A DNA stretch of 62,093 nt from Sedimenticola hydrogenitrophicus (GTDB lineage: Bacteria > Pseudomonadota > Gammaproteobacteria > Chromatiales > Chromatiaceae): NCBI RefSeq assembly GCF_025175675.1, contig NZ_JANIOA010000028.1:1-62093 (forward strand). The letters are read 5' to 3'. The position numbers and the translations under genes were made by a program. The notes beneath the pieces were generated by a model. It saw only the letters and a list, made by a program, of their open reading frames with translations. It was not told where the DNA came from and did not search any database. Of the stretch, positions 21,344 through 58,584 are shown one piece after another (the first letter of the stretch is position 1; every line of letters begins with the position of its first letter).

Positions 21344-21964
21344 CGGGTCCAGCTCCTCTCGTCAGCTCTATAGCCGGGGATCTACTGCTACTCGGTTGAA
21401 ACGCCTCATCGCATTATGAAGCAGCCGTGAGTATTACACAGGGGAGCGGATGGCGTGAAGGCCGTCCCACGGCGGCCGGCGCATCCCCGAGCCGGCTACC
21501 AGCAATTCTAATTTAGCCGCGAGGAGTGGTGCTAGAGGAGTGGTACAGGGATGTACCGTTTACGGAGCCGAGGATGCCATGCACCGTTTACGGACCTAAG
21601 GATGGAATGAACGCGAATAAATTCACTATAACCCCTCCAGTGGATTGGTGGACGTCAGAGCGGTGAGGCATTACAGACAAATTAATAGACACCGGAGGTA
21701 ACGGCTGGGCGGGACCCAGGAGAACCACGGATTCACACAGATAAACACGGATTCAGAATGCTGATCCCCTATCTGTGTGAATCCGTGTCCATCCGTGGTT
21801 CCTTACTAACCGGGCTGGGATAACAAAACGGCTATTGAAAGCCATACTGAGTATTGCTGGCCGGCCGCGTTGTGGGTTGAAGTCTGCGGGGGGTGCGGCT
21901 ATTCTTCCCGACTTGAGCTATCTGCCAAGGCCGATTCCTACTTCACCTATCCATTGGAAAAATA
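21344..21964. other. 621-base gene-free interval with repeats
   Basis: No supported gene. It contains a motif GTACAGGGATGTACCGTTTA with GGAGCCGAGGATGCCATGC near 21545-21580, repeated at about 41572-41608 and, in reverse, near 55690-55725. It also contains the palindrome listed at 21722-21801. Confidence 0.7.
21722..21801. repeat. 80-bp nested inverted repeat of ATCCGTGT type
   Basis: Outer arms GAACCACGGAT (21722-21732) and ATCCGTGGTTC (21791-21801) are perfect. Inner arms TTCACACAGAT (21732-21742) and ATCTGTGTGAA (21771-21781) are also perfect. The element resembles intergenic palindromes common in environmental proteobacteria. It could fold as a long hairpin upstream of the DsbA-like gene. 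Confidence 0.75.
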
Positions 21965-33785: not shown

Positions 33786-33951
33786 GGCAGTCAACCGAAC
33801 GGCACTAAGTTAAGCCCAGAACCACCGTCATCCCGGCGAATGCCGGGATCCAGGCGGTTCGATGGAGGCAGTTTCCCTGGATTCCGGCCTGCGCCGGAAT
33901 GACGGAAACAGGTGTATCCCGGCTTAACTTAGTGCCATTCGGCACTCAACC
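33786..33951. mobile_element. TIR element copy A with 11-bp target duplication
   Basis: Element 33797-33940 (144 bp) has ends GAACGGCACTAAGTTAAGC and GCTTAACTTAGTGCCATTC, 18 of 19 matching. Flanks GGCAGTCAACC and GGCACTCAACC are a target duplication with one mismatch. The interior holds two REP-like hairpins (GTCATCCCGGCGAATGCCGG and CCGGCCTGCGCCGGAATGAC). No transposase is encoded. Confidence 0.85.
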
Positions 33952-41496: not shown

Positions 41497-41736
41497 AAAT
41501 TTCGGAGTTCTAGAGGCGTCGTGCAGGGCGTGCCACCCCCTTGCCGGGACCGTCGGAGGCAGGAGGAGTGATACAGGGATGTACCGTTTACGGAGCCGAG
41601 GATGCCATGCCGACGCCGAGCGTACAGGGACGTATTCACAGCGTGTCCCGGCGAGGGAGTGGCCCGCCCGGTGTCTGGAACTGAGCTTCGGAAATCGCCG
41701 CTTGCCGATCGGTGTTTCCGCGCGGGGATTCAGGCA

Positions 41737-52348: not shown

Positions 52349-53686
52349 CTAATCATATATTCGGTAGCAGTTTCTGCCAGATTCTTTGGCTTGATACATG
52401 GCGGTATCGGCCTTTTTTATACAGCTTTCCATATCCTGATCATCTGGAGACACCAGGGAAATGCCTATACTTACGCCCATCTTATACTGAGAGCCTTTCA
52501 GAACGAAAGGCTGCCAAATGGCAGCAATTATTTTTTCCGCCATCTTGCAGACGACCTCTTCGGAGGCAACATCTACAAGGATGATGCTGAACTCATCGCC
52601 GCCAAGGCGGGCTACTGTATCTGTCGCGCGGATGCATTGCAGAAGACGATTGCCCACCTCAACAAGGGCCTGATCACCCCACTCATGACCCAGTTCATCA
52701 TTGATCAGTTTGAAGTGGTCAAGATCCAGCATCAACACGGCCATAAGACTATTATTGCGATGTACCTGTGCCATCGCCTGTTGCAGGCGGTCATAAAACA
52801 GTGCCCGGTTGGGTAGTCTTGTAAGATGGTCATGGTAGGCCATGTTATTGATTATTTCTTCTGCCTGCTTGCGTTCCGTGATGTCGAGATGTAACCCGAC
52901 ATAGTGGGTGATGACATCATCATCGTCTTTGACGGCGGTGATCGTAAGCCACTTGGGATATATCTCACCATTCTTACGTCGGTCCCATATCTCTCCCTGC
53001 CATTTTCCAGTGCGATTGAGGGTCTCCCACATCTCACGATAAAAATCCGCATCGTGACGACCTGATTTAAGCAGATTCGGTGTTTGGCCAACGACTTCCT
53101 CTGATGTGTAACCAGTAGTGTTCGTGAAAGCGCGGTTGATCTTCAGGATCACACTATTCGCATCGGTGATCACCATGCTTTCCTGAGATTCAAACGCAGC
53201 TGTAGTGATGCGAAGTTCGTTCTCGACCAGCTTACGTTCAGTGATGTCATGAATGATCGAAAAAAACAGGCTCTTGCCCTTGTCGATCACAGTTGAAATA
53301 TGTGCTTCTACCGTACGAACGGATCCATTGGCCAGACGGTGTTCAAAGGTAAATATATTCTGTTCCCCAGTAATTGCTCTCTTTCTTATTGGATGGATTT
53401 CCGACTCTTGTTGTGCATTGATCCGGCTTACGCTCATACCACGCAAGCTCTCCAATGGGTAACCATAAAATTGCGCTGCTGCAGGATTGGCATCAACGAT
53501 GATGCCGGATTGGTAATCAATCAATAACATGACATCATGATGTAGTTCGAACAATTGGCGAAAATAGGCTTCGCTTTCCAGCAAGGCCTGATAACTTAAC
53601 TTATGCTGTTCAGAGTCCGCCACCGCATCATACTCCGTGGTAATTTTATCGGCACAAATATTAAAGGGGTCTATGAAGAATGGCAC
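52349..53686 (-). CDS. PAS-PAS diguanylate cyclase (GGDEF)
   Basis: 445 residues. Two PAS domains (about 35-155 and 160-280, each ending in an ITERK stretch) precede a GGDEF domain with the active site RLGGDEFSIIL, so it should make c-di-GMP in response to a sensed signal. No transmembrane segment is visible, so it is probably cytoplasmic. The annotated first codon is a GTG that lies inside the inverted repeat of an insertion element (53678-53769), so the original start was probably lost or lies downstream; a GTG at 53623 with GGAG nine bases before it is an alternative that keeps both PAS domains. Confidence 0.85.
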   Translation of the reverse strand: MPFFIDPFNICADKITTEYDAVADSEQHKLSYQALLESEAYFRQLFELHHDVMLLIDYQSGIIVDANPAAAQFYGYPLESLRGMSVSRINAQQESEIHPIRKRAITGEQNIFTFEHRLANGSVRTVEAHISTVIDKGKSLFFSIIHDITERKLVENELRITTAAFESQESMVITDANSVILKINRAFTNTTGYTSEEVVGQTPNLLKSGRHDADFYREMWETLNRTGKWQGEIWDRRKNGEIYPKWLTITAVKDDDDVITHYVGLHLDITERKQAEEIINNMAYHDHLTRLPNRALFYDRLQQAMAQVHRNNSLMAVLMLDLDHFKLINDELGHEWGDQALVEVGNRLLQCIRATDTVARLGGDEFSIILVDVASEEVVCKMAEKIIAAIWQPFVLKGSQYKMGVSIGISLVSPDDQDMESCIKKADTAMYQAKESGRNCYRIYD

Positions 53687-53780
53687 TTACTTAAATCGAA
53701 TCGCAGGATTTTCGTCATTCCGGCATGCGCCGGAATGACGGTGGTTCCTAGCTTAAGTAAGTGCCATTCGGGTCTATGAA
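53667..53780. mobile_element. TIR element copy B with perfect 11-bp target duplication
   Basis: Element 53678-53769 (92 bp) has perfect 17-bp ends GAATGGCACTTACTTAA and TTAAGTAAGTGCCATTC. It is bracketed by GGGTCTATGAA at 53667-53677 and 53770-53780. The interior is a single REP-like hairpin, GTCATTCCGGCATGCGCCGG. It interrupts a RAYT gene remnant and provides the 5' end of the GGDEF gene. Confidence 0.92.
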
Positions 53781-53961
53781 TATGATTGGTCATCAAGCAC
53801 CACGCATACAGCTTTACACCCAGTTCTATCTTCCGCTCTCTTAAGTATTCCAAATAGAATTGGTAATCCCGGTTCACTAGTTATACCGCATTTCGATTAT
53901 GCCCTCTCAGTACAATATGATGCGGGCAATTCGGCATCAATACTCTTGCCTTCCTTGGCAT
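53771..53961 (-). pseudogene. REP-associated tyrosine transposase (RAYT/IS200-like) remnant
   Basis: From ATG 53961 (after ACGGAGG) the frame reads MPRKARVLMPNCPHHIVLRG, then stops at GTATAA. In a second frame it resumes with NRDYQFYLEYLRERKIELG and LYAWCLMTNHIHR, the HxH region of RAYT proteins, and then hits the insertion element at 53770. It is thus frameshifted and truncated before the catalytic Tyr. RAYT enzymes mobilise REP hairpins such as those inside the nearby elements. Confidence 0.85.
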
Positions 53962-53990
53962 AGCAACCTCCGTAATGCTTTAGAAAAATA

Positions 53991-54198
53991 AATGCGTCCC
54001 GAATGGCACTGACTTAAGCTCAAATGTAGGGTGGGTTAGCGTTTTTTGCGTAACCCACCAGGCGTTGCGCAGCAACACAACCCGTTTGTTTAAGGTGTGC
54101 CTGACGGCACGGCTGGTGGGTTACGGCGCAAACAACGCGCCTAACCCACCCTACATTGGATACGAATACGCTTAAGTCAGTGCCATTCAATGCGTCCC
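53991..54198. mobile_element. TIR element copy C with perfect 10-bp target duplication
   Basis: Element 54001-54188 (188 bp) has perfect 19-bp ends GAATGGCACTGACTTAAGC and GCTTAAGTCAGTGCCATTC. It is bracketed by AATGCGTCCC at 53991-54000 and 54189-54198. The interior is a different repeat, GTAGGGTGGGTTAGCG to CGCCTAACCCACCCTAC. Confidence 0.93.
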
Positions 54199-54540
54199 CA
54201 TTTTCCCGGGACAACCGTGTCCCACGATGCTCTGGATTCGGTCTTTACGATACGCAAAGTATAGATGGCCACATGGGGATGACAGACTCCTCCGGCTGGG
54301 GGTGCGGCCCTGGTGCTCCAGGCACCGTGCCAATGAGGTAAGACGTCAATTTCTGACGATGGAGATTAAAGGGAGATGTTCGGTAGCATGACGTGTCAGC
54401 GGACAGCGATGCCGAGAGTGCGGTTCAAGACACGCGCCCTTATGTCTGCCTCAACCCGCTTACCCGCCCGGCATTTCGGCTTTCGCCAGAATGCGCCTTT
54501 CCGTGGTTGATGTTCGCTGTGTCGGGAACCGGCTGCCAAA
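54199..54540. other. Gene-free interval
   Basis: About 340 bases between an insertion element and the DUF3050 gene. Reading frames here have no recognisable product, and I see no clear promoter or hairpin. Confidence 0.5.
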
Positions 54541-55341
54541 TTATAGGACCGCCATCACCCCGTCCCAGAACTCGATGCGGGCCTGGATGGCGGTCAGCGC
54601 CGCGGCCTCCGCCTCCTCGATCCTGTCGGGTTCGTCACCGCACAACTGTTCTAGAAGCGCCAGGGACAACGGGCCATGGTGGTCCCCGTCGAGATGAATG
54701 TGGCGTTCCAGGTAATAGTGGAAGGCCGGAGCCTGCCCCGGCCCGATATCCATTCTGGCAATCAGGGCCCGGAACATCGGCGGGATGATGTGCTCCCGCC
54801 CCAGGGCAAAGGCGGCAGCGATGACGTGGGGCCGGCGGCTGTCGATGAATGCGAAGGTCTGGTGCATGAAGGCCCGTGCCGGTTCCGGCAGGTCGGCGAC
54901 CGGCAGTACATCGCGAATTCCTTCCCGGCGCACCCGATCGACGAAGACTTCGGCGCGGGAGGTATCCGCCCCCACCTCTTTCATCCCCTGCAGGTACAAC
55001 TCGTAGTGGCTGGCGTAGGTGATCTCGCCATCCACGCCCGGAAGCCCCTGGTCACACTCCTCCTCGATGACAATGTCGTTGATAAAACGGCAGTAACGGG
55101 CATGGTCCGGCAGCAAGTTCACCGGCGTCCATGGTGAGCGCGACGGGGCGAGGTAGTGTTGCAACTCTTTCAGCAGGGACATGAAATCCCAAACCGAGAA
55201 GACATGCTGGGCCATGAAGGCGCGCAGACTCTCCATGTCCCGGACCCGGGCGTAGACCGGGTGATTTTCCAATTCGACGCGCAGGGCGCGAACACGTTCC
55301 AGGGGGAACCATGTTGGGTTTTGCGGGGACTTGAGGCTCAT
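54541..55341 (-). CDS. DUF3050 (haem-oxygenase-like fold) protein
   Basis: 266 residues. Blocks [47 protein letters not shown] and [17 protein letters not shown] match the DUF3050 family, which has the all-helical haem-oxygenase-like fold. His and Glu residues in EEECDQG and HLDGDHHG could bind a di-iron centre, as in related HDO enzymes; that is inference. The ATG at 55341 follows GGAG at eight bases; the longer frame to 55539 reads a 180-bp repeat. Function unknown. Confidence 0.85.
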
Positions 55342-55416
55342 CAAAGGACTCCAACGCGATCGAAACAACACCGTATCGACGCGTACCAGTTGATAAAGAG
55401 ATTTTGTGGGTTGTGT

Positions 55417-55790
55417 TAACCCTATCGTTGCAAAAATCGACCTGTAGGAGGCCCCCCCGGGCCGAAATCGCGGCGGGGCGCCGCTCCTGCAGGTGCAATG
55501 CCAGACTTCACCGGCGGTGCATTCCAGGAAACCATGCAACAGGTCTATTTCATCCGGCGAAAGACGGATTGAAACAAATCATAAGGCCTTAATTAGTGTC
55601 CATCCAGAAACGCACGTAATTTAAATTGTCGTCACCCCGGCGGAGGCCGGGGTCCAGGGGATTCAACAAGTTACTGGATTCCATCCTCAGGTCCGTAAAC
55701 GGTGCGTCCCTGCACCACTCCTCCGGCATTCGCCGGAATGACGATTTCTGTAGTTTCTGGATAGGCACTAATTAATGCAACCATTGGGCT
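55417..55790 (+). repeat. Dispersed ~180-bp repeat, copy 4, split by an insertion
   Basis: AACCCTATCGTTGCAAAAAT, a GCGGCGGGGCGCCGC hairpin, GGTGCATTCCAGGAAACCAT and a diverged tail (GGCGAAAGACGGATTGA) match the other copies. The 3' part (TTAATGCAACCATTGGG) is found only after 55768, because a 173-bp element has landed inside it. Confidence 0.85.
55590..55774. mobile_element. Second type of TIR element, inserted in the 180-bp repeat
   Basis: Ends GTGTCCATCCAGAAAC (55596-55611) and GTTTCTGGATAGGCAC (55753-55768) are 14 of 16 complementary. TAATTA stands on both sides as a possible 6-bp target duplication. The interior holds CACCCCGGCGGAGGCCGGGG, a fragment with GTCCGTAAACGGTGCGTCCC, and CCGGCATTCGCCGGAATGAC. 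Confidence 0.78.
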
Positions 55791-55894
55791 AAGCCGACGA
55801 TAATAAGACTTTGCTTATATTATGACAAGCTCTGAAGACTCATTCGAATTGAGGAACGCCGGTAACTCCGGCGGGAATTCCAGGACACCCGTCG

Positions 55895-56908
55895 CTAGCA
55901 AGTGCACTCCCCACAAATCGATACGCTCATGGCTTGACGAACCCTGCTTGCGTTCAATCCCTCTCCAAGCAGGGTGTGGAGCTTGGTGAACGCGGCCTCC
56001 AATGTCAGGTCGGCGCCGGGGACGACGCCGATCGTATTGAGGCTGGCGCCGGTGGCGTAGACGCCTTGATCGATTTTTCCCTGGATGCATTGGGAGATGT
56101 TGAGAATGACTTTACCCTGCTCTACCGCGCGGCCCAGTACCCGAAGTAGCGCCGGGTTATTATCGGGTACATTGCCCACGCCATAGGTCTGTAGTATCAA
56201 GCCACGCACGTTGTCCGGCTCCAGGTGGCTTTCGATAACCCGGGCGGATATGCCCGGGTATATCTGCGCCACGCTCACCGCATCGGAAGCGAATGCCGGC
56301 AGGAGAAATTCACGTCTGCCAGGCTTCAGCAGCAAGTGACGTTTCAGATCGATATGAATACCGACTTGCCCCAGCCAGGGGTGATTGGGGGAATCGAAAG
56401 CGTCAAAGCCGGCGCTTTTGAGCTTCGTGCTGCGATTGCCGCGCAGTAGGCGGCCGTCGAAGTAGATGCACACTTCTGAGATCTCCGCACGACCGGCCAG
56501 CATCAGCGCGGTCACCAGATTGTCGAGGGCATCATTACGTGTTTCAGTCAGTGGGATCTGCGAGCCGGTCACGATGACCGGCTTATCGATGCCGCGCAAC
56601 ATAAACGACAGGGCCGAGGCGGTATAGGCCATGGTGTCGGTGCCATGCAGGATGACGAAACCATCGTAGGCGTCCCACTGCTCGACGATCTCGCCACCGA
56701 TGCGGCCCCAGTCCGAGGGAACCAGGTTGGCGCTGTCGATGAGCGCATCAAGTTCGATCAGCTCATACTCGGGTAACTGGTGGCTGGCGCGGGTCTGCAA
56801 ATGCTCCTTCATCAGGCGCCCGAATCCCCGGATCGGTACATAGCCCCGATCCGAGGGTTGCATGCCGATCGTGCCGCCGGTGTAAAGCACCAGAACGCGC
56901 GGTTTCAT
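55895..56908 (-). CDS. ansA: L-asparaginase, type I (AnsA-like)
   Basis: 337 residues. The catalytic threonine lies in YTGGTIGM and the second in LHGTDTMAYTASAL, with Ser in DSANLVPSDW and Lys in STKLKSAGF. There is no signal peptide, so it should be cytoplasmic. It converts asparagine to aspartate and ammonia. Its ATG overlaps the aspartase stop by four bases, so the two are cotranslated and asparagine nitrogen and carbon are funnelled to fumarate. The C-terminus (CGECTC) is Cys-rich, which is unusual but short. Confidence 0.93.
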   Translation of the reverse strand: MKPRVLVLYTGGTIGMQPSDRGYVPIRGFGRLMKEHLQTRASHQLPEYELIELDALIDSANLVPSDWGRIGGEIVEQWDAYDGFVILHGTDTMAYTASALSFMLRGIDKPVIVTGSQIPLTETRNDALDNLVTALMLAGRAEISEVCIYFDGRLLRGNRSTKLKSAGFDAFDSPNHPWLGQVGIHIDLKRHLLLKPGRREFLLPAFASDAVSVAQIYPGISARVIESHLEPDNVRGLILQTYGVGNVPDNNPALLRVLGRAVEQGKVILNISQCIQGKIDQGVYATGASLNTIGVVPGADLTLEAAFTKLHTLLGEGLNASRVRQAMSVSICGECTC

Positions 56909-58323
56909 GCCAGGCCGATGGGCGAATGTTGGGGTTGGGGTGCCAGCATGGATTGCGGGCTCAGCAATAGCTCCAGTTTCGCTTCATCGAGCAAACCTTC
57001 CGCCAGCACCAGCTCGCGCACGGTGGCGCCGGTATGCAACGCCTGGGCGGCGATGCGCGACGAATTGGCGTAGCCGATATGGGGCACCAGTGCGGTAATG
57101 CAGCCGATGCTGTTGTTCAGGTGTTGTGCGCAACGTTCGACGTCCGCCTCAATGCCGCGGATACAGCGATGTTCCAGCATGGTACAGGCGGCCCCCAGCA
57201 TCTTCATGGAGTTGAGCAGGTTGTAGATGATCAAGGGCTCCATCGCATTGAGCTGCAACTGGCCGGCCTCCGCGGCCAGGGTCACCGCCAGGTCATTGGC
57301 GATAACCTGGTAGGCGCTTTGATTGACCGCCTCCGGAATCACAGGGTTGACCTTGCCCGGCATGATGGAAGAACCGGGTTGCATGGGCGGCAGGCGGATC
57401 TCGCCAAAACCGGTACGGGGACCGCTGGAGAGCAGGCGCAGGTCGTTGGCGATCTTTCCCAGCTTGATCGCAAAGCGTCTCAGGATGCCGGAGAACAGCA
57501 CGAACGCCCCCATATCGGAAGTCGCCTCCACCAGGTTGGAGGCCGGTGTCAGGGGTTTGCCGGAAATCTTGGACAGATGACCTATCGCCAGCGCCGAGTA
57601 GTGCGGATGGGTGTTGATGCCGGTGCCGATAGCCGTGCCCCCCAGGTTCACCTCGGAGAGCAGGGTGCACGCTTCCCGCAGGCGGTCCACATCCTCATTC
57701 AGGGTGACGGCAAACGCCTCGAACTCCTGGCCCAGGGTCATCGGCACGGCGTCCTGCAGTTGGGTGCGCCCCATCTTCACCACGTCGGCGAACTCCGTCC
57801 CTTTGGCGGCGAACGCCTGCGTCAGGCTGAAAATGGTATCGATCAGCGGGTCGGCAGCCATGATGATCGCCAGGCTGGCGGCGGTGGGGTAGGCGTCGTT
57901 GGTCGACTGGGAGCGGTTCACGTCATCGTTGGGATGCAGATAGGCATACTCCCCCTTGCGATGACCCAATTTTTCCAGTGCCAGATTGGCGATCACTTCG
58001 TTGGCGTTCATGTTGGTGGAGGTGCCGGCGCCGCCCTGGATCAAGTCCACCACAAACTGATCGTGCAGATGGCCCGCGCAGATCTGTTCGCAGGCGGCCA
58101 CGATGGCATCCGCCTTGGCGGCACGCAGCAGTCCCAGCTCGGTATTGGCCCTGGCGGCGGCGGCCTTCACCATCGCCAGTGCATTCACCAGTTGCGGGAA
58201 GTGGCTGATCGGCACGCCGGTAATGGAAAAATTGTCCAGCGCGCGCTGGGTCTGAATGCCGTACCAGGCATCGGCGGGGATCTCCATGTCGCCCAGAAGA
58301 TCATGTTCCATTCGCATTTTCAT
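56905..58323 (-). CDS. aspA: Aspartate ammonia-lyase
   Basis: 472 residues, full length. The superfamily signature GSSIMPGKVNP, plus TSTNMNANEV and NDDVNRSQSTND, identifies an aspartase/fumarase family enzyme. The tight operon with asparaginase favours aspartase. It splits aspartate to fumarate and ammonia. The ATG at 58323 has no strong ribosome-binding site; ATG codons at the third and fifth codons are alternatives. An insertion element lies 49 bases upstream, in the promoter region. Confidence 0.92.
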   Translation of the reverse strand: MKMRMEHDLLGDMEIPADAWYGIQTQRALDNFSITGVPISHFPQLVNALAMVKAAAARANTELGLLRAAKADAIVAACEQICAGHLHDQFVVDLIQGGAGTSTNMNANEVIANLALEKLGHRKGEYAYLHPNDDVNRSQSTNDAYPTAASLAIIMAADPLIDTIFSLTQAFAAKGTEFADVVKMGRTQLQDAVPMTLGQEFEAFAVTLNEDVDRLREACTLLSEVNLGGTAIGTGINTHPHYSALAIGHLSKISGKPLTPASNLVEATSDMGAFVLFSGILRRFAIKLGKIANDLRLLSSGPRTGFGEIRLPPMQPGSSIMPGKVNPVIPEAVNQSAYQVIANDLAVTLAAEAGQLQLNAMEPLIIYNLLNSMKMLGAACTMLEHRCIRGIEADVERCAQHLNNSIGCITALVPHIGYANSSRIAAQALHTGATVRELVLAEGLLDEAKLELLLSPQSMLAPQPQHSPIGLA

Positions 58324-58360
58324 TGGTGTTGGGTTCCGATATTGAGAGTAGATAAGGTTG

Positions 58361-58584
58361 CTTTCAGATCCGAATGGCGCTTACTTAGTGTCTATCCAGA
58401 AACTACAGAAATCGTCATTCCGGCGAATGCCGGACAACAGCGCGAAGCGCGTTGAACGACTGAAAGTCGGCCCGAAGGGTGAGCGAAGCGAATCATCCAG
58501 TAACTTGTTGAATTTCCTGGACCCCGGCCTTCGCCGGGGTGACGGTGATTCTTGACTTAAGTAAGTGCCATTCGTTTCAGATCC
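58361..58584. mobile_element. TIR element copy D with 10-bp target duplication
   Basis: Element 58372-58573 (202 bp) has ends GAATGGCGCTTACTTA and TAAGTAAGTGCCATTC, 15 of 16 matching. Flanks CTTTCAGATCC and GTTTCAGATCC match at 10 of 11 bases. The interior begins with GTGTCTATCCAGAAACTACA, the end of the second TIR element, and contains two REP-like hairpins. It sits in the short space between aspA and the symporter gene. Confidence 0.88.

Follow-up and report, generated by a model that had tools for sequence, protein, structure and literature searches.

The window analysed in this study is a stretch of 62,093 nucleotides from the bacterium Sedimenticola hydrogenitrophicus (contig NZ_JANIOA010000028.1, assembly GCF_025175675.1), and it contains four short elements that share their ends. 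These elements are very probably non-autonomous mini-transposons of the IS4 subgroup (IS, insertion sequence), which mostly carry dimers of repetitive extragenic palindromes (REPs) as cargo, would be moved in trans, and have interiors that appear to be rebuilt in place. A first-pass annotation had reported an insertion-element family with shared ends, copy-specific target duplications and different interiors; its observation is confirmed and its interpretation supported, and the finding is real and was correctly read. What appears to be new here is an IS4-subgroup system of miniature inverted-repeat transposable elements (MITEs) with palindromic repeats as cargo and interiors that appear to change in place.

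The four elements of the window

The window is contig C54 of a 4.71-Mb genome in 132 contigs (G000), which we compared with a relative from the same genus (G006, about 120 contigs); both genomes are draft assemblies. Direct reading and measurement bore out all four copies, their ends and their target duplications. The 92-bp element at 53678..53769 (+) has perfect 17-bp terminal inverted repeats (TIRs), lies between two copies of GGGTCTATGAA (53667..53677 and 53770..53780; 11/11 match), and has as its interior one REP hairpin with a CGTC tag (53713-53740, located by a REP pattern search). The 188-bp element at 54001..54188 (+) has perfect 19-bp TIRs between copies of AATGCGTCCC (53991..54000 and 54189..54198; 10/10), and its interior reads as a GTAGGGTGGGTTA...TAACCCACCCTAC palindromic repeat; among the loci examined it is one of three copies of a GTGGGTTA-type element, the core of which is separate from the REP types. 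The 202-bp element at 58372..58573 (+) is a mosaic with mismatches in its TIRs, and is composed of a left end, a TATCCAGAAAC-type REP dimer with a 60-bp module, and a right part in common with G006. The pattern search placed its REPs near 58413-58433 and 58524-58544, and the module lies within the first REP arm (58435..58494, +, approximate bounds; the core at 58454-58493 is one of 11 genome copies). Its duplication TTTCAGATCC (58362..58371 and 58575..58584, the right copy being one base off the element end) can be read as a 10/10 match, with an additional base in front of the right copy, or as 11 bases with one mismatch. Finally, the 144-bp element at 33797..33940 (+) has the CTAAGTTAAG end type and TIRs with mismatches, is flanked by GGCAGTCAACC (33786..33796) and GGCACTCAACC (33941..33951; 10/11, one mismatch), and encloses a head-to-head CGTC-REP dimer of core type f (33826-33846 on the plus strand and 33884-33904 on the minus strand, from the pattern search and typing).

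The perfection of the TIRs in two copies and the copy-specific duplications of 10-11 bp were thus as first described. The interiors do differ, but they are not a miscellany: three of the four (53678, 33797 and 58372) hold CGTC-tagged REP hairpins. All four elements are short, have TIRs and a target duplication, and contain no transposase gene, as MITEs do; a site in the relative that is empty and retains one target copy was found for 53678 and is probable for 33797, and the sites of 54001 and 58372 are occupied in G006.

The elements at 58372 and 33797 lie between open reading frames (ORFs), and that at 53678 lies at the 5' end of a PAS-GGDEF gene. A degenerate Y1_Tnp remnant with a stop codon, resembling the REP-associated tyrosine transposases (RAYTs), adjoins both the 53678 element and the 5' end of this gene (53776-53931, minus strand); its G006 counterpart is weaker and falls below the cut-off. 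No Rfam match at gathering thresholds and no tRNA by ARAGORN was found in the window.

Ends and target duplications in the whole genome

With no mismatch allowed, the end motif GAAYGGCRCTNASTTA matched the window at exactly the eight element ends. When up to three mismatches were allowed, the window had 9 matches against 5.26 expected, and 8 of 100 shuffled sequences reached 9, so that the motif at this tolerance is no proof by itself. The whole of G000 gave 84 matches at up to one mismatch and none for the reversed-pattern control, and in G006 there were 146 real end matches and 5 for the reversed pattern. Pairing from the ends only yielded 35 elements in G000 (34 short and one full-length); the search for inverted end pairs that the first-pass annotation had proposed thus found further copies. 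A duplication of 10-11 bp at 90% identity or more flanked 27 of these 35 elements, compared with 12 of 5000 control combinations of the left flank of one element with the right flank of another. The symmetrised target resembles GGGTCNGACCC and is centred on TCNGA (C/G 0.64 at positions 5/7 and T/A 0.57 at positions 4/8). Several G000 copies (in the flanks of L032, L054, L056, L061 and L069) adjoin GGGGTCGGAGTC or GACTCCGACCCC repeats, and these flanking repeats agree with the GGGTCNGACCC target preference.

Empty sites in the relative

We sought 24 G000 sites in G006, 19 by a joined-flank query (chosen mainly for good duplications) and five separately, and 16 were resolved. The other eight comprised L046:13255, the flank of which lies in a repeat, L075 and L049:3036, which are at contig ends, and L032, L034:1083, L037, L047 and L058, for which there was no good match. 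Among the resolved sites, eight were without the element, four were occupied by the same element and four were occupied by a changed one. The site of 53678 in G006 is an uninterrupted sequence with one copy of GGGTCTATGAA, and G006 likewise lacks the full-length IS in L034 and the elements L038, L036 and L072, each site retaining a single target copy (in L036 and L072 this copy has substitutions). The site of 33797 is probably empty, its orthology being less certain, with a single target copy that has substitutions and a flank that is part of a dispersed repeat; with this site, six empty sites were found in all. The other two element-free sites are L055 (another element about 30 bp away) and L065 (a different insertion there). 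At L055, the G000 element and the G006 element (L320) are two different members of the family about 30 bp apart across the species, which hints at a local hot spot.

At the empty sites the ends and the REP are jointly missing and one target copy is left, so that the cargo seems to come in together with its ends. Transposition, as claimed by the first-pass annotation, is borne out by these sites, and neither of the contrary outcomes that it had named appeared. These results also bear on a different explanation, that the elements are regulatory or terminator hairpins, fixed in place and conserved for their function. The hairpins are indeed strong and their gene context would suit such a role (58372 and 33797 between ORFs, 53678 at the 5' end of a gene), but the element is missing at 8 of the 16 resolved sites even though the syntenic G006 stretches of at least 400 bp aligned to the window contig are 96.6-98.4% identical (the exception is 83.7% over a stretch spanning the element at 54001, which is inverted in G006), and duplications and empty sites are present. 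We regard fixed hairpins as a very improbable explanation.

REP cargo of the elements

A search of the whole of G000 with the CGTC-REP pattern CGTCATYCCGGC-NNNN-GCCGG (up to one mismatch) gave 107 matches and none for the reversed control, and the matches have the CGTC tag, a short stem and a loop of 4-5 bases. The 106 matches that were analysed fell into 64 clusters, of which, at the same tolerance, 41 have a plus followed by a minus match (head-to-head, with the tags outside), 22 are single and 1 is tandem; the 41 include two or more cases (C54:53713 and C63:37936) in which one perfect hairpin was matched on both strands. An IS4-type end was found on both sides of 38 clusters and on one side only of 17 (five of them at contig ends). 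There were originally 20 clusters with one end, and C1:164977, C54:55630 and C105:6041 were discounted as chance-like matches in another element type. Such an end occurred in 3.6% of random 160-bp stretches, drawn from a pool that includes real elements. Since 55 of the 64 clusters adjoin IS4-subgroup ends and the empty sites suggest that ends and cargo move jointly, there is now a testable carrier for CGTC REPs. Most interiors here share one plan, a CGTC-REP dimer, often head-to-head; as the cargo is mostly such a dimer between IS4 ends, the REPs appear to travel as passengers. The elements are 86-329 bp in size with gene-free cargo, and dozens of copies are present in G000.

The remaining nine clusters have TATCCAGAAAC-type ends (4), the CTGATTAG type (2), the GGCTGTCCCGTTAAC type (1) or none (2). 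REPs between these other inverted ends were observed in L263, L264, L273 and window 55600-55790 (TATCCAGAAAC type), in L265 (GGCTGTCCCGTTAAC type), and in L262 and L046:7510 (CTGATTAG type), indicating that a core of this kind is common to several families of elements.

In a second explanation, the REP dimers and other palindromes are themselves mobile, for example through RAYT-like Y1 transposases, and land in existing empty MITEs as safe sites, so that the IS4 ends are not their carriers. In G000 there are five Y1_Tnp matches, one of which is the remnant adjoining 53678, dimers also occur between other TIRs or without any, and smaller modules do appear to be inserted in REPs. Nevertheless, RAYT-linked REPs have the tag GTAG, whereas the tag here is CGTC. 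Of the five Y1 matches, only the degenerate one beside 53678 shares a contig with a CGTC REP (among the 100 of 107 REP matches listed), unlike the RAYT gene flanked by REPs of the REPIN/RAYT system. At the empty sites, moreover, neither the ends nor the REP are present and a single target copy is left, and among the 34 short pairs no bare TIR-TIR element was seen, the only elements without a REP being the three GTGGGTTA copies. Autonomous movement of the REPs is therefore improbable as an alternative to their carriage by IS4 ends.

We also typed the cores of 57 REP-bearing elements from the TIR-REP segments and the spacer, leaving out the three GTGGGTTA copies and setting by eye the bounds of elements without a paired end. 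Four core types (a, b, d and f) were distinguished, together with recombinant cores, namely L074:7015 (a-left with d-core, a1-Sd-d1), L071 (a-left with b-core, a1-Sb-b2) and the window mosaic at 58372. Spacers of type d were found in both orientations (L037 and L051 versus L050, L055 and L064), and the spacer is inverted in L052. The 60-bp module, which resembles three small hairpins and is situated in REP arms, was found within REP-bearing elements in all 11 of its genome copies.

A 42-bp module, GAGGAGTGGTRCANGGATGYACCGTTTACGGANCYNAGGATG, was observed at window 21521-21604, 41563-41604 and 55682-55723, and also in L059:2686-3014, L061, L132 and L133; it resembles small dispersed repeats. Its 3' half has 204 matches in G000 at up to two mismatches and none in the control. 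The module occurs within several unrelated repeats, directly 5' of G/C-A/C-A-T in 96 of the 105 copies examined, and it also forms tandem copies and inserts of itself within its hairpin loop, to a depth of up to three.

Apparent change in place at shared insertion sites

Eight elements are at the same site in G000 and G006, of which four are unchanged and four are different. The element at 54001 is inverted in G006 between identical duplications. L060 is also inverted (L318 in G006, where the 42-bp and 60-bp modules are also present), as 134 of 142 alignment columns are identical in reverse orientation compared with 104 of 125 in the same orientation. L059 and its G006 counterpart L319 (329 and 218 bp, respectively) have common outer parts and different sets of nested modules. 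At 58372, the two genomes agree in the duplication, in the outer flanks on either side and, with one mismatch, in the rightmost 30 bases of the element, and the interior in G006 is another REP dimer (185 bp versus 202 bp in the window). The window interior resembles L263, L273 and window 55600-55790, which are elements with other ends, and its left junction is at a short shared TTA.

Part of the interior diversity thus appears to arise through in-place change at old insertion sites. We infer recombination or template switching between copies, aided by the REP arms and TIRs that they have in common, and which state is ancestral at the changed sites is likewise a matter that we infer. The alternative is that separate MITE families arose by internal deletion and capture, many times independently, and that the apparent in-place changes are assembly errors or independent insertions at the same target. 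It agrees with the existence of four core types, with the difficulty of assembling near-palindromic repeats in two drafts, and with the second G006 element about 30 bp from the L055 site, which means that local hot spots exist. On the other hand, 58372 agrees with its G006 counterpart in the right 30 bases and in the duplication and is a mosaic that includes a second element type, and L059 and L319 are alike outside and different inside. It is also unlikely that, at four of eight shared sites, elements entered the two species independently at one and the same base and gave the same duplication. An origin as separate families is accordingly unlikely, though less so than self-mobile REPs. If in-place inversion and replacement do occur, they explain same-ended MITEs with unrelated-looking interiors, and they warn that the interior alone is insufficient for sorting MITE families.

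A full-length IS4-type element and the candidate helper

The full-length element paired in G000 lies on contig C2 (L034:4147-5654), is 1508 bp long, and has perfect inverted ends GAATGCTACTTAGTTAAG and an 11-bp duplication CCCTCTGACCC (11/11). Its transposase is encoded by one unshifted ORF of 478 amino acids that matches NCBIfam NF033592 (IS4 family transposase, 6.8e-67) and Pfam DDE_Tnp_1, and contains the Y-(2)-R-(3)-E-(6)-K (YREK) motif, YRERWHVELDFRNIK. In the subgroup description consulted in De Palmenaer et al. (2008, PMC2266710), subgroup IS4 has ends of the form -AATR--------WTW, a duplication of 10-13 bp, a length of 1400-1650 bp and the YREK motif, and the ends, duplication length, size and YREK ORF of the L034 element all agree with it. 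Judged from these features, the element fits subgroup IS4 of the IS4 family. No match was obtained when its transposase was searched against PDB sequences.

The first-pass annotation had suggested an IS4-like helper outside the window and a search for a full-length IS with the same ends. A full-length IS4-family element does exist in the genome and elements with identical ends exist in relatives, but the ends of the former are only similar to those of the window elements (15 of 18 bases). Among 96 sampled genomes of the family, 11, including this one, have a transposase match at 1e-30. GAATGGCACTTACTTAAG is found at both ends of the full-length relatives L141, L189 and L369 and at one end of L135, L137 and L180, and GAATGGCACTAAGTTAAG at both ends of L374 and L382; no duplication flanks L141 or L369, and identity to the query transposase is only 37-39% for L374 and L382. 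The full-length relatives with identical ends indicate that the MITE end types correspond to existing IS lineages. Two shorter forms were also observed: L137:4094-5087 (994 bp) has IS4-subgroup ends and an apparently internally deleted transposase gene, and is possibly an intermediate between a full IS and a MITE, and L185:5903-6868 of Calothrix sp. PCC 7103 (966 bp) has the same ends and a 12-bp duplication but lacks a long ORF, its longest open stretch being 114 codons.

Mobilisation in trans by the transposase of a parent element would proceed as follows. A full-length IS with matching ends would supply the DDE transposase, which would bind the inverted ends of about 18 bp in trans, excise the element and paste it into GGGTCNGACCC-like targets, duplicating 10-11 bp. 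The CGTC-REP dimers would ride between the IS4 ends as passengers. After insertion, the interior would be exchanged, flipped or lengthened through recombination or template switching, because REP arms and TIRs are common to many copies and to other repeat elements, and the ends and target duplication would be retained.

The same ends in other genomes

An exact scan of named genomes for GAATGGCACTTACTTAAG gave at least 116 stretches, of which 80 were taken as loci: 31 have a short pair, 7 a long element and 42 no pair. A duplication of at least 10 matching bases was found for 18 of the 31 short pairs, a share that is biased upwards because a duplication was required of any pair in which the second end was weak. 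When 20 bases were cut from each end, the interior folded at z below -3 in 22 of the 31 pairs and not so in 9. The 31 pairs include CGTC-REP-like dimers (e.g. L138, L149, L159 and L203), GTGGGTTA palindromes (L193 and L208) and several other palindromes. The same ends are thus found around varied palindromes elsewhere, so that the link between ends and palindromic cargo recurs, without being universal.

We also looked for TIRs around CGTC REPs at 30 loci from four other genomes. IS4 ends with a duplication were found at L335/L339 (one element), L336, L340/L344 (one element) and L348, all in Rhodanobacter, and other inverted arms were clearly above the control only at L353 and L361. L333, L337, L341 and L345 score 8-12, which is inside the control range (random flank pairs 10-14, once 53, median 7), and the sampled Pseudomaricurvus loci had no IS4 end. 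The statement that CGTC REPs generally sit in TIRs was consequently not adopted for these genomes, as many of the REPs at the 30 loci are without a TIR.

A broader proposal can be made tentatively, and we give it a little less than even weight: that IS4-subgroup ends generally serve dispersed palindromic repeats as a vehicle, in Gammaproteobacteria as well as in other groups, and that between these ends repeats without a transposase (CGTC REPs and GTGGGTTA) spread, with interiors exchanged or flipped in place by recombination because TIRs and cargo are symmetric. If true, one set of ends keeps trying new palindromic cargo.

Several points weigh against the mini-transposon explanation for G000 itself. 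Good duplications are missing in 8 of the 35 pairs, and four of the eight shared elements (L034:3993, L043, L068 and L069:6005) are the same in both species but for substitutions. The main caveat is that the inversions and interior differences could partly be assembly errors, as near-palindromic repeats are compared between two drafts. The end of the L034 IS departs from the main MITE end in 3 of 18 bases and, besides the two ends of the IS itself, occurs exactly at only two places in G000, and this IS is the sole transposase match of its type in G000 (E 0.001); the helper of the TTAC and TAAG end types may therefore be absent, diverged or unassembled. Many CGTC REPs in the four other genomes have no detectable TIR, so that riding in such elements is not the rule everywhere.

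Relation to known systems

Unlike the members of the IS4 subgroup, the window elements have no transposase; they are derivatives with ends of the same type. Where IS4 ends enclose foreign DNA, the nearest known case is MIC231 of IS231 (IS4 family, Bacillus cereus group), a mobile insertion cassette (MIC) with genes as its cargo. A MIC consists of IS ends around unrelated passenger genes, without a transposase; the window elements have IS ends and no transposase, and their cargo is gene-free. Both systems have IS4-family ends around unrelated DNA that is presumably moved in trans, whereas the cargo here consists of gene-free palindromic repeats in elements of 86-329 bp with dozens of copies, and MIC231 belongs to another IS4 subgroup. 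The Correia repeat enclosed elements and neisserial intergenic mosaic elements (NIME) of Neisseria are MITEs said to invert in place; they resemble the present elements in this respect and differ in TIRs and host. The small dispersed repeats of cyanobacteria are very short and reportedly (Elhai et al. 2008) lie inserted within other repeats. In this they are similar to the 42- and 60-bp modules, but sequence and host differ and self-nesting reaches three deep here.

In a search of open-access literature, mostly of titles and the starts of abstracts, no description of IS4-derived MITEs with REP cargo or of interior exchange was found, and 'IS4', 'nested' and 'gene conversion', searched for as whole words, were not found in a 2024 review on MITEs of prokaryotes (PMC10969869). 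Open-access text matched the end sequence only for one 12-letter fragment, in unrelated animals or genes.

The REPINs of REPIN/RAYT systems (PMC3116915) are, like the present elements, short palindromes in inverted pairs that spread as non-autonomous units; the former have a GTAG tag and a Y1 transposase, whereas the latter have a CGTC tag and the ends of a DDE element. CGTC-tagged REPs were named in a survey across several phyla (Di Nocera et al. 2013, PMC3733652), according to the sections of which consulted here they apparently have no dedicated transposase and a broad spectrum of transposases is one option. The same sections describe CGTC-1 dimers of H. neapolitanus inside 41-bp palindromes, which they leave unexplained, and dRS3 (CGTC-1) repeats in mosaic arrays of Neisseria. 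The REPs in G000 have the same CGTC tag, short stem, 4-base loop and head-to-head dimers as those described there, and differ in that the majority of their clusters in this genome lie next to IS4-subgroup ends. For one genome, these data support the idea of a broad spectrum of transposases, the carrier being of the IS4 subgroup.

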